Source: a virus. From it: a DNA stretch of 27,047 bases. The position numbers and the translations under genes are program-made. How positions within the stretch are numbered: the stretch's first letter is position 1; every line of letters starts with the position of its first letter. The notes beneath the pieces were generated by a model, which was not told the DNA's origin, made no database searches, and saw only the letters and a program-made list of their open reading frames with translations. The DNA is taken from positions 1 through 27,047 of the IMG/VR virus record IMGVR_UViG_3300008116_000599. One strand, 5' to 3'. Shown here piece after piece: positions 9,109 to 11,745 of this stretch.

Positions 9109-9182
9109 AGGTGGACACTCGCCACCTCGTGCCCCGCTAGTGTCTCGCACACTTGCGCCCTCTGTCTAGGGTGCGGGGCTGT
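9109..9182 (-). ncRNA. Structured intergenic RNA element, type A
   Basis: This 106-nt spacer (9082-9187) folds strongly. A 7-bp stem GCCCCGC/GCGGGGC (9179-9173 with 9137-9131) encloses two hairpins, CCCU/AGGG (9171-9168 with 9161-9158) and CGCA/UGCG (9157-9154 with 9149-9146). A further hairpin AGGTGG/CCACCT follows (9127-9122 with 9114-9109), then the Shine-Dalgarno. It shares the flanking ACAGCCCC ... GGGGCAC and the following hairpin with the spacer at 9793-9858. It lacks the hammerhead core. Class unknown. Confidence 0.5.
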
Positions 9183-9792: not shown

Positions 9793-9858
9793 AGCGAGAC
9801 TCTCTCGCCTTATGGTGCCCCCGTCGGATTGTGAACCCGTAGCCCGTAGCGCGGGGGC
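9793..9858 (-). ncRNA. Structured intergenic RNA element, type A-like
   Basis: A 7-bp stem GCCCCCG/CGGGGGC (9858-9852 with 9823-9817) encloses a 28-nt region with a small inner hairpin (CGGG/UCCG). A perfect 6-bp hairpin GCGAGA/TCTCGC (9808-9803 with 9799-9794) follows, then the repeated 11-bp element and the Shine-Dalgarno. Flanks ACAGCCCC and GGGGCAC match the spacer at 9109-9182. The 3' part ends ...GGGGGCACCA and has a TTC loop, so it faintly resembles a tRNA acceptor/T-arm, but no D or anticodon arm fits. Confidence 0.45.
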
Positions 9859-9865
9859 TGTCTTG

Positions 9866-10042
9866 CTAGGCGTGAAAGACCTCCTCGAATAGGTCTCTGA
9901 GTAGTTCCGCAATGAAGTTATCCGCCCGCCCCTGAACCTCGTCGACAATCTTTGAAAGTTGCTCGGGCGTTAGGTCTTGCCCGTAGTTCGACGAGTACGA
10001 GTCTAGAATCTCTTCCGCTGTTAGGTTGATGACTGTCTTCAT
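9866..10042 (-). CDS. 58-residue acidic hypothetical protein
   Basis: Read directly from the minus strand: ATG 10042 follows GACAGGAGAAAGCAGA. The product begins MKTVINLTAEEI and is helical and acidic throughout, with a Leu/Phe-rich amphipathic C-terminal helix (FIAELLRDLFEEVF). Its transcript segment is predicted to be released from the upstream gene by the hammerhead at 10075-10127. No family recognised. Confidence 0.75.
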   Translation of the reverse strand: MKTVINLTAEEILDSYSSNYGQDLTPEQLSKIVDEVQGRADNFIAELLRDLFEEVFHA

Positions 10043-10074: not shown

Positions 10075-10127
10075 AGGCTCATCAGTTAGGGCACTTACCC
10101 TAAGACCCCCGTGAGGGGGTTTCGCCT
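10075..10127 (-). ncRNA. Type II hammerhead ribozyme, copy 1
   Basis: Reading the minus strand from 10127: AGGC (stem II 5' side), GAAA (10123-10120), stem III CCCCC/GGGGG with UCAC loop (10119-10106), then U10105 and C10104 (cleavage after C10104, GUC triplet). Stem I UUAGGG/CCCUAA follows (10103-10098 with 10091-10086), then the core CUGAUGA (10085-10079) and GCCU (10078-10075), which closes stem II with AGGC. Every invariant hammerhead core position is present, and A15.1 pairs with U16.1. It starts 3 nt after the SprT-like gene's stop, and the next Shine-Dalgarno begins about 17 nt after its 3' end. Confidence 0.9.
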
Positions 10128-10130
10128 TGG

Positions 10131-10757
10131 CTACTGAGCGCGGAATTCCACCCCGCAAGACTGGCATAGAGGGGCGCACCTTTCAAGCACCCTTGCAGAG
10201 ATTCTCATCTTCTCGCCACAGTCACAGACCGCCACCTTGAGGTTTTTATTTCTGCCCGCACTCTTCTTCCCTTGCTCAGAATCTGCCATAAGTGAGAGGG
10301 CGTTCTCAATCAAGGCGAGGGCGTCGCTCCATCGGTTAGCGCACTCGTCGCTCACCTCTGTCACGCTCCACCCGATGCCTTTCGCTTGAGTGATGGTGAG
10401 CCCTAGGGCTTCCGCTGTTGCCTTGAATTTCTGATTATGGTACCCGTCCCCGCTCACGCCTTGGATTCCATTCTGTGCGTCGATGCTGTGCGCTACCTCG
10501 TGAAGAAGTGTCCCAAGCACCGCCCGGGCTCCTCTCTCGAAGTAGTTCGCGCTTATCATCACCTCGTGAAACGATTCCTCGCCCGCTTTCCATAGTTTCG
10601 AGTGCGTGAAATGTCCCATAGTCCGCCCGGTCTTGCGGGTGACGAGGATGGTCACGCGGGGGGCTCCTGTCTTCTCTCGAATGATGGAATGCGCCCCCTC
10701 GAGGGCGGACACGATGCCGGAGAGGTGCTCTGTGCGGGTCTCTGTTGCTGTGCTCAC
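10131..10757 (-). CDS. SprT-like zinc metalloprotease with C-terminal zinc ribbon
   Basis: A 208-residue protein. The catalytic HEVAH motif is at residues 86-90, with a later histidine (Y-H-N-Q, ~107) as third zinc ligand, as in SprT/Spartan-like proteases. The C-terminus carries C-D-C-G (178-181), C194, C198 and C201, forming a zinc ribbon as in SprT. Such proteins are thought to degrade DNA-protein crosslinks or nucleic-acid-bound proteins. GTG 10757 is chosen because it overlaps the upstream TGA (GTGA); the reading frame extends further upstream but through the previous gene. A hammerhead follows its stop codon directly. Confidence 0.85.
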   Translation of the reverse strand: MSTATETRTEHLSGIVSALEGAHSIIREKTGAPRVTILVTRKTGRTMGHFTHSKLWKAGEESFHEVMISANYFERGARAVLGTLLHEVAHSIDAQNGIQGVSGDGYHNQKFKATAEALGLTITQAKGIGWSVTEVSDECANRWSDALALIENALSLMADSEQGKKSAGRNKNLKVAVCDCGEKMRISARVLERCAPLCQSCGVEFRAQ

Positions 10758-10915
10758 GCGGTCACCTGCTTCACGGTGAATGCTGTCCCTCTTTCGCCCT
10801 CGCGGTAATCCTTGAGGATTTGCAGGGCTTCCGCCTTGGTGCTTGCGGTGTAGACCGCTTCCCATCCTCCGGCGTAATAGCCTCGTACTTCCCAGAGTGT
10901 CTGTTTCTTGCTCAT
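10754..10915 (-). CDS. 53-residue conserved phage protein
   Basis: Begins MSKKQTLWEVRGYYAGGWEAVYTA, then a T-K-A-E-A-L-Q-I-L-K-D-Y-R helix and a final beta strand. This W-E-V-x-G-Y-Y-x-x-G-W-E-x-V pattern is common among tiny actinobacteriophage proteins of unknown function. ATG 10915 follows GACAGGAGAAACAGCA; translationally coupled to the SprT-like gene by GTGA. Its 5' leader is produced by hammerhead copy 2. Confidence 0.8.
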   Translation of the reverse strand: MSKKQTLWEVRGYYAGGWEAVYTASTKAEALQILKDYREGERGTAFTVKQVTA

Positions 10916-10941
10916 TGCTGTTTCTCCTGTCTCTTTGGCTT

Positions 10942-10998
10942 GGCTCTTCAGTTGGGAGGGAGCCACCCTGCCCAAGACCCCCGTGAGGGGGTTTCGCC
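10942..10998 (-). ncRNA. Type II hammerhead ribozyme, copy 2
   Basis: Minus strand from 10998: GGC (stem II), GAAA (10995-10992), stem III CCCCC/GGGGG with UCAC loop (10991-10978), then U10977 and C10976 (cleavage after C10976). Stem I UUGGG/CCCAA (10975-10971 with 10956-10952) extends by GGG/CCC (10968-10966 with 10960-10958) across a small internal loop. Then the core CUGAAGA (10951-10945) and GCC (10944-10942) closing stem II. The last G of the upstream TAG stop codon (11000-10998) is the first base of stem II. The next Shine-Dalgarno begins about 10 nt after the 3' end. Confidence 0.9.
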
Positions 10999-11453
10999 TA
11001 TCCTCTGACCATCTCGCTGTCTTTCTGTGCCTTGAGGTACTTCTCTCTCAGTGCCTCGAGTTTTGGCTTCAGAGTCTCATCGTCACGCTTCCAAAGAGTC
11101 GAAACTCTGTCCTGTAGTGCTCTGAGGGATTCTGATTCAAAGAACCCCGTCCCATTGCGTAACTCTTGGATTTTTGCATCACGGGCGTCGGACAGTTCGC
11201 GCTGTATCTTCCTCAGTTCTCGAATCTGCTCCTCGATTGCCTTATCCTCGAGAGACCATTTCTCCCAAGCATCGTCCACGTCGCGCTTGATTGCTCGCTC
11301 GTTATCCATCACCGCCATATTGATGTCATTCTGAGCCTCGCGGTATTCACGAGAGAACTTCTCCCTCTCGAGTTTTGCGACGGCTCCAAGGAAAGCGCGG
11401 GCGCGGGCGGGGTTGAGGTTCTCTTTTGCCCAAAGTTCGTCTTTGATGCTCAT
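10998..11453 (-). CDS. Charged coiled-coil hypothetical protein
   Basis: A 151-residue protein starting MSIKDELWAKENL at ATG 11453, behind GACAGGAGAAACGACA. It is almost entirely Lys/Glu/Arg-rich helix with heptad-like Leu/Ile spacing (residues ~25-95 and ~105-150), so a coiled coil is likely. No catalytic motif. It lies between hammerhead copies 2 and 3. Confidence 0.78.
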   Translation of the reverse strand: MSIKDELWAKENLNPARARAFLGAVAKLEREKFSREYREAQNDINMAVMDNERAIKRDVDDAWEKWSLEDKAIEEQIRELRKIQRELSDARDAKIQELRNGTGFFESESLRALQDRVSTLWKRDDETLKPKLEALREKYLKAQKDSEMVRG

Positions 11454-11480
11454 TGTCGTTTCTCCTGTCTTTCTTAGCCT

Positions 11481-11536
11481 GTCTCTTCAGTAGGGGGAGG
11501 CTAACCCGCCCTAGACCCCCTTGCGGGGGTTTCGAC
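11481..11536 (-). ncRNA. Type II hammerhead ribozyme, copy 3
   Basis: Minus strand from 11536: GUC (stem II), GAAA (11533-11530), stem III CCCCC/GGGGG with GCAA loop (11529-11516), then U11515 and C11514 (cleavage after C11514). Stem I UAGGG/CCCUA (11513-11509 with 11495-11491) has a weak extension. Then the core CUGAAGA (11490-11484) and GAC (11483-11481) closing stem II. Relative to copies 1 and 2, stem II changes G-C to U-A with both sides altered, a compensatory change. The G of the upstream TAG stop (11538-11536) is the first base of stem II. Confidence 0.9.
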
Positions 11537-11745
11537 TAGTTCGCCAGTTGGGCGATGACTTCCTCCATCTTGAGACCCTCCTCGAACTGGCGGGCAATCT
11601 CTCGAATCTGAGAGCGCGAGAGTTCAATCTTCAGACCGTTATCGAATCGAATCCACGCATAACTAGAAGTGAGCCCGACGAACTCAACGCCTGTCTCTTC
11701 AGTGATTGAAACGCTAACGGTGGCGGGTGTTGGTGTCTTCTTCAT
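11536..11745 (-). CDS. 69-residue hypothetical protein, first gene of the minus operon
   Basis: Starts at ATG 11745 behind GACAGGAGAAACACCAA. Thr/Pro/Val-rich N-terminal beta strands (TPATVSVSITEETG, then WIRFDNGLKIELSRSQ) are followed by an amphipathic helix ending in E-E-V-I-A-Q-L-A-N. It looks like a small sandwich-plus-helix domain. Function unknown. As the promoter-proximal gene it is likely among the earliest expressed of this operon. Confidence 0.78.
   Translation of the reverse strand: MKKTPTPATVSVSITEETGVEFVGLTSSYAWIRFDNGLKIELSRSQIREIARQFEEGLKMEEVIAQLAN

Follow-up and report, generated by a model that had tools for sequence, protein, structure and literature searches.

Structured RNAs that lie between genes can mark the cut points of a polycistronic transcript, as in the transfer RNA (tRNA) punctuation of mitochondria. 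In prophages, clusters of hammerhead ribozymes that flank single genes or short blocks of genes were described by Perreault et al. in 2011, and three arrangements were tested (PMC3088659). For the triple around ardA of A. tumefaciens, activity was seen both in vitro and in E. coli, further arrangements came from C. scindens and A. caulinodans, and the type II architecture with its pseudoknot was presented in the same paper, where it was proposed that the ribozymes cut transcripts into operon- or gene-length messenger RNAs (mRNAs) (PMC3088659). Here, three type II hammerheads were studied in a phage operon of the IMG/VR virus record IMGVR_UViG_3300008116_000599; the window, that is, the whole stretch of DNA that was analyzed, comprises positions 1-27,047 of this record (27,047 bases). 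The locus resembles the published clusters in that several hammerheads surround genes on what is presumably one phage transcript, and the same role is proposed for them. It differs in that all copies here are of type II, arrays elsewhere reach 8-12 copies per genome, the placement relative to stop codons is quantified, and some arrays are mixed with tRNA-like elements.

The operon runs on the minus strand from approximately 11.8 kb down to approximately 6 kb, and three of its spacers contain complete type II hammerheads. Their assignment to this class is supported by sequence, covariance model, covariation across syntenic relatives and gene context. The ribozymes and their associated pairings were as follows:

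11481..11536, minus strand: hammerhead copy 1, type II with a long stem I; predicted cleavage after C11514; Rfam score of 42.4 bits, descriptor match and covariation
10942..10998, minus strand: hammerhead copy 2, type II with a long stem I; predicted cleavage after C10976; Rfam score of 37.9 bits, hammerhead structure recovered as the minimum-energy fold, and covariation
10075..10127, minus strand: hammerhead copy 3, type II with a short stem I and no pseudoknot; predicted cleavage after C10104; Rfam score of 33.3 bits and descriptor match
11504-11499 with 11479-11474, minus strand: pseudoknot of copy 1 between loop I and the 3' tail (UUAGCC/GGCUAA)
10965-10961 with 10940-10936, minus strand: pseudoknot of copy 2 between loop I and the 3' tail (UGGCU/AGCCA)
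10085-10081 with 10069-10065, minus strand: competing hairpin of copy 3 (CUGAU with AUCAG) in the minimum-energy fold; UCAG is found in the tails of short-stem-I relatives

The motifs CUGANGA, GAAA and GUC (the U-H cleavage site) could be read directly in all three copies. The cores were GTC.GAAA...GTC^TAGGG..CCCTA.CTGAAGA.GAC in copy 1 (11536-11481), GGC.GAAA...GTC^TTGGG..CCCAA.CTGAAGA.GCC in copy 2 (10998-10942) and AGGC.GAAA...GTC^TTAGGG..CCCTAA.CTGATGA.GCCT in copy 3 (10127-10075). According to the descriptor and the Rfam alignment, stems I and III are closed by loops and stem II is open in each copy. The sequence, order and coordinates given for the three minus-strand elements in the earlier note on this DNA agreed with these data; its description of stem II (GGC/GCC versus GUC/GAC) and of the stem I changes was correct, and the cleavage sites that it named follow from the sequence as predicted sites. 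Its statement that the spacers are successive needs to be amended: they are spacers of one operon on one strand, but two open reading frames (ORFs; 10915-10754 and 10757-10131) separate copies 2 and 3.

A covariance-model search, which the earlier note had proposed as a check, was performed with cmscan, and the Rfam model Hammerhead_II (RF02276) matched all three copies (E values of 1.1e-5, 1.7e-4 and 2.8e-3 for copies 1, 2 and 3, respectively). Copies 1 and 2 scored above the gathering score of 37; copy 3 scored below it, with its core intact. A strict descriptor that required GAAA, CUGANGA, a U-H cleavage site and all three stems matched exactly these three sites over 27 kb, compared with an average of 0.017 matches in first-order Markov shuffles of the window. 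A loose stem III pattern with two mismatches was uninformative (12 matches versus 7 expected). The elements share with RF02276 the core, the stem order and, in copies 1 and 2, a covariance-model score above the threshold and the pseudoknot, a feature that is common but not universal in this class; copy 3 departs from the family by its score, its short stem I, the absence of the pseudoknot and the competing hairpin. Two subtypes can be distinguished, one with a long stem I and a pseudoknot (copies 1 and 2) and the other with a short stem I and no pseudoknot (copy 3).

Conservation was studied in 16 related IMG/VR records that were reached via the SprT-like gene of the operon (10757-10131). The Hammerhead_II model matched at E ≤ 0.1 in 12 of these 16 records, G005 being matched weakly. 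In 11 of the 12, the strict descriptor found one to three copies; in the twelfth (L010, in G005), copy 3 is diverged and scores 21.9 bits. In the record IMGVR_UViG_3300042691_019907, to which L006 belongs, the three ribozymes are identical to those of the window, and this record provides no independent evidence. Covariation was examined in 17 hammerheads picked by synteny, i.e., by their position next to homologous genes, and not by structure. Base pairs were counted from the core anchors, since a MAFFT alignment of all slots had placed the long stem III wrongly in some relatives of copy 3. Stems I, II and III all showed compensatory changes. The second pair of stem II was U-A or G-C, the third pair of stem III was C-G, G-C, U-A or U-G (unpaired in 2/17), and the second pair of stem I was A-U, G-C, U-A or C-G. 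The pseudoknot of copies 1 and 2 showed compensatory changes at pairs 3, 5 and 6. Among 170 distinct hammerheads, the mean best loop-to-tail helix was 4.50, compared with 3.66 +/- 0.05 when the tails were dealt to other copies. The earlier note had named loss of core bases or of pairing in close relatives as evidence that would speak against its proposal; instead, the core bases were kept and the stems changed in a compensatory manner. It was also observed that stem III of copy 3 is extended in L007, L008, L009, L010, L011, L013, L014 and L015; it reads CCUAG-CCCCGA/UCGGGG-CGAGG or a variant of this, contains an internal loop and varies at the third pair.

The short-stem-I subtype has a further feature. 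UCAG, the complement of the catalytic CUGA, was present in the 3' tail of 31 of the 46 short-stem-I copies versus 5 of the 138 long-type copies. The base preceding UCAG can pair with the variable core position 7 in 22/27 copies, and U-A, C-G, U-G and G-U combinations were seen. The resulting hairpin may represent an off-state or trap the RNA once it has been cleaved, which is offered as a lead only, many of the copies coming from one clade.

Arrays of this kind were found in many other phages. A scan of IMG/VR with one narrow DNA pattern yielded at least 119 loci. Among the 119 matches listed, at least one type II hammerhead was detected by the descriptor in 76 loci and two or more in 45, with a maximum of nine; no mixed-strand locus was present among these matches, and the median gap between neighbors was 476 nucleotides (nt), or approximately one small gene. 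Rfam counts over whole records gave 8-12 hammerheads in genomes of approximately 50 kb. Tefunt, a cultured Streptomyces phage, contains L083, and the Rfam hammerhead positions of L072 fall in spacers of the record of Streptomyces phage Janus. In Janus, hammerheads were present in all ten spacers of at least 79 nt in the examined array (eleven in total), and none overlapped an annotated gene; in Sentinel, 4 of the 10 Rfam matches overlapped annotated genes. Arrays of roughly 6-12 type II hammerheads were seen in L072 (probably Janus), L083 (Tefunt), L114 (probably Sentinel), L142, L157, L117 and L066, which are phage genomes or fragments; the arrays are unannotated in the deposited Janus and Sentinel records.

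The placement of the ribozymes relative to genes was similar across these copies. The stop codon of a frame of at least 40 codons precedes the hammerhead in 132 of 142 non-redundant copies. This stop codon ends 2-8 nt before GAAA in 94/142 copies (7 in a control taken 300 nt upstream) and touches or overlaps the first bases of stem II in 54/142 (3 in the same control). The next start codon lies 22-29 nt past stem II in 109/161 cases. Because of these distances to the stop and start codons, it can be stated that the ribozyme occupies the gap between the stop codon and the Shine-Dalgarno sequence. The genes around the ribozymes of the window were as follows:

11536..11745, minus strand: ORF of 69 amino acids (aa); the G of its TAG stop codon is the first base of hammerhead copy 1
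10998..11453, minus strand: ORF of 151 aa; the G of its TAG stop codon is the first base of hammerhead copy 2; in relatives, its homologues are flanked by other RNA elements
10754..10915, minus strand: ORF of 53 aa after hammerhead copy 2, overlapping the ORF at 10757-10131 by 4 nt
10131..10757, minus strand: ORF of 208 aa, SprT-like, PHROG 6361 (Pfam PF10263, E 1.2e-5; phrog_6361, E 2.8e-47)
9866..10042, minus strand: ORF of 58 aa after hammerhead copy 3

The stop codon of the SprT-like ORF is located 3 nt ahead of hammerhead copy 3. No promoter- or terminator-like sites were found at the hammerhead spacers. The record also encodes terminase, portal, DnaB-like helicase, sigma-factor-like and WhiB-like genes, and because of the WhiB-like gene, an actinobacterial host is likely. 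Positions 12380-11860 of the window form an AT-rich region between the divergent early (minus strand) and late (plus strand) genes, which is possibly a promoter or origin region.

The next long spacers of the hammerhead operon contain two elements of another kind:

9817..9858, minus strand: tRNA-like element A, with a 7-base-pair (bp) acceptor-like stem, a T-arm-like hairpin and a 3' ACCA, followed by a further hairpin
9131..9179, minus strand: tRNA-like element B, with a 7-bp stem, a small hairpin, a T-arm-like hairpin and a 3' ACGA, followed by a further hairpin

In general, an acceptor-like stem and a small hairpin precede the T-arm-like hairpin; one linking base leads on to the closing strand, behind which come AC-N-A and a further hairpin. 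In 11 sequences (element B and its relatives), 98% of the cells were paired and six pairs showed two-sided changes (0/500 shuffles). A substrate of RNase P or of another tRNA-processing enzyme would have an acceptor and T-arm stack of approximately 12 bp with a T-loop. The stack formed here by the acceptor and the T-arm has 11-12 covarying layers; the T-loop is UUCGAGY in the Streptomyces phage Endor1, and the copies in the window have deviant T-loops. The same element occurs in relatives without hammerheads, e.g., L004, L005, L018, L019 and L020. This tRNA-like three-way-junction RNA was also noted in L007, L011 and others, in spacers after the hammerheads, and in some relatives, a GNRA-capped hairpin (GUGAN-GNRA-NUCAC) lies ahead of the tRNA-like element. 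Identification of 9858-9817 and 9179-9131 as tRNA genes was rejected: they have no anticodon arm or cloverleaf, ARAGORN reported none, and there was no Rfam tRNA match. No other Rfam family matched the tRNA-like elements either.

Endor1, which belongs to the same subfamily as Janus, had no hammerhead in the 19 kb examined. Nine tRNA-like elements were found there (L181, 13490-18600), with a 5-bp acceptor, a link containing GG, a T-stem of 6 or 7 bp and a T-loop starting with UUCGA. In the eight regular elements, pairing was 100%, and 7 of the 11 pairs showed two-sided changes. These elements were missed by ARAGORN and had no Rfam match; a strict 12-layer tRNA-like descriptor catches one Endor1 copy only, the other copies having 11 layers. 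On the same side of three orthologous genes, Endor1 has a spacer with a tRNA-like element where Janus has one with a hammerhead, and for two of the three genes Sentinel likewise has a hammerhead; the genes across those spacers differ, so the spacers are comparable, not strictly orthologous. Three or more tRNA-like elements were present in 41 of the loci examined, with up to eleven per locus and each locus on one strand, versus none in shuffled Endor1; most of these loci were retrieved with Endor1-derived patterns, and the number is therefore not a survey. A hairpin follows within 8 nt after 217 of the 231 tRNA-like elements in such arrays, a count made without a shuffle control. In Endor1, L213, L191, L225 and approximately 40 other loci, mimics of the top half of a tRNA (acceptor, GG link and T-arm), each approximately 40 nt long, were seen in tandem in consecutive spacers.

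Hammerheads and tRNA-like elements occur together on one strand in, for example, L212, L262, L276, L126 and L234, as well as in the family of the window. In phage Alderaan, for which RNA sequencing of the infection has been described (PMC9239200), no hammerheads were found, nor were tRNA-like elements by the strict descriptor. Among relatives, the order of the RNA elements (one or more hammerheads, then tRNA-like) was kept while the gene families f8, f7, f2 and f3 shifted position. The 151-aa family, for example, is flanked by hammerheads 1 and 2 in the window; in L008, L010 and L015 it sits behind hammerhead 3 and ahead of the first tRNA-like element, and in L016 the two tRNA-like elements enclose it. 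The tRNA-like elements may be processed by tRNA enzymes. With even chances in our judgment, many actinobacterial phages punctuate their early transcripts with interchangeable cutting marks at nearly all of the longer gene boundaries, either self-cutting type II hammerheads or small tRNA-like elements (acceptor stem, D-loop-like GG and T-arm) that would be served by host tRNA-processing enzymes, and gene cassettes move between the marks.

Fold, core, covariation and conserved position were observed for the hammerheads, as were arrays in many phages, and it is quite probable that the ribozymes cut the early polycistronic phage mRNA at gene boundaries, which would protect the ends and make the cassettes independent. 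This was considered the best reading because the elements match Rfam and the descriptor, undergo compensatory changes, are placed behind stop codons and have no promoter or terminator sites beside them; because tested arrays elsewhere cleave (PMC3088659); and because tRNA-like elements resembling substrates of RNA-cutting enzymes flank orthologous genes in a sister phage. As the polymerase passes a spacer, the RNA would fold and cleave itself behind GUC, at the junction of stems III and I. On the upstream side, the product would retain the stop codon, and its 3' end would be the stem III hairpin bearing a 2',3'-cyclic phosphate; the downstream product would start with a 5'-OH, and its stem I hairpin would precede the Shine-Dalgarno sequence and the start codon. 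In this way, the polycistronic messenger would give rise to short mRNAs, each with one or two genes and with ends protected by hairpins; stability and dosage could be set separately for each cassette, and a cassette could be exchanged while its neighbors stay unaffected. The tRNA-like elements may act likewise via tRNA-processing enzymes. Compared with mitochondrial punctuation, the marks here are self-cleaving ribozymes and tRNA-like elements that lack an anticodon arm.

Several observations weigh against cutting at gene boundaries. The predicted fold of copy 1 varies with the length of flank given, although RNAfold is unable to model the pseudoknot, and copy 3 has no pseudoknot and hides its catalytic CUGAUGA in another hairpin in its minimum-energy fold. 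In addition, no hammerhead was found in four more distant relatives and in two OX37664x phage records; therefore, the hammerhead is not essential to this gene set. One alternative is a switch-like cleavage coupled to translation, which is compatible with boundary cutting and which we regard as possible, although somewhat unlikely. A ribosome at the fused stop codon would cover the 5' half and hold the ribozyme open, and the CUGAU/AUCAG hairpin of copy 3 would set an off-state or trap the product, so that cleavage would be a matter of regulated timing and not constitutive. The fusion of the stop codon to stem II, or its position just ahead of it, is consistent with this, as are the enrichment of the UCAG tail in short-stem-I copies and the pairing potential of the preceding base with core position 7; however, the fusion may simply reflect genome compactness, a single clade contributes many of the short-stem copies, and C-G was seen in only three cases.

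That the hairpins alone matter, as a terminator or mRNA stabilizer, with the hammerhead cores being inactive relics, would fit the strong C/G hairpin of stem III and the fact that activity here is predicted. This appears very improbable, since relatives keep the core bases while the stems drift in a paired manner and the spacers have no terminator-like sites. The constant order of the RNA elements during relocation of f8, f7, f2 and f3 would also be expected if the elements persisted mainly as junctions for recombination, i.e., as homologous DNA between short genes that allows cassettes to be swapped. Nevertheless, compensatory changes in stems and pseudoknots indicate selection on RNA pairing and not on DNA identity, which makes this explanation rather unlikely, and exchange may be a by-product. 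Finally, the pieces between hammerheads would carry the 5'-OH and 2',3'-cyclic phosphate ends that RtcB can join, and the formation of circular or religated RNAs was raised as a possibility earlier (PMC3088659). Perreault et al. looked for circles and found none (PMC3088659), and no RtcB was found in 23 phage records, although hosts may supply it; circular products are thus extremely unlikely to be the function of these arrays.

The view in the earlier note that a tandem series is unusual was partly right, given that phage hammerhead clusters and the idea of gene-length mRNAs were published in 2011 (PMC3088659). The tandem arrangement alone is of a kind already described; what appears to be new, in our view, is the length of the arrays, their geometry relative to stop codons and the apparent replacement by tRNA-like elements. 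In the papers searched, which were mostly open access, no report was found of arrays of 8-12 hammerheads (including those in cultured Streptomyces phages), of placement directly behind the stop codon or of covarying tRNA-like elements in other spacers of such an operon and in arrays of related phages, beside genes whose orthologues in sister phages have hammerheads; given this scope, the negative result argues only weakly that such reports do not exist. No clear answer has so far been given to the question of what hammerheads do in bacteria and phages. With the arrays in the Streptomyces phages Janus, Tefunt and Sentinel, and with Endor1, which carries tRNA-like elements beside orthologous genes, the question becomes testable. 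If it is true that two unrelated RNAs linked to cutting replace each other between like genes, then cutting at the gene boundary is probably what is selected. The findings hint at a wider system of mRNA punctuation, in which ribozymes or tRNA-like elements would occupy the same kind of gap.
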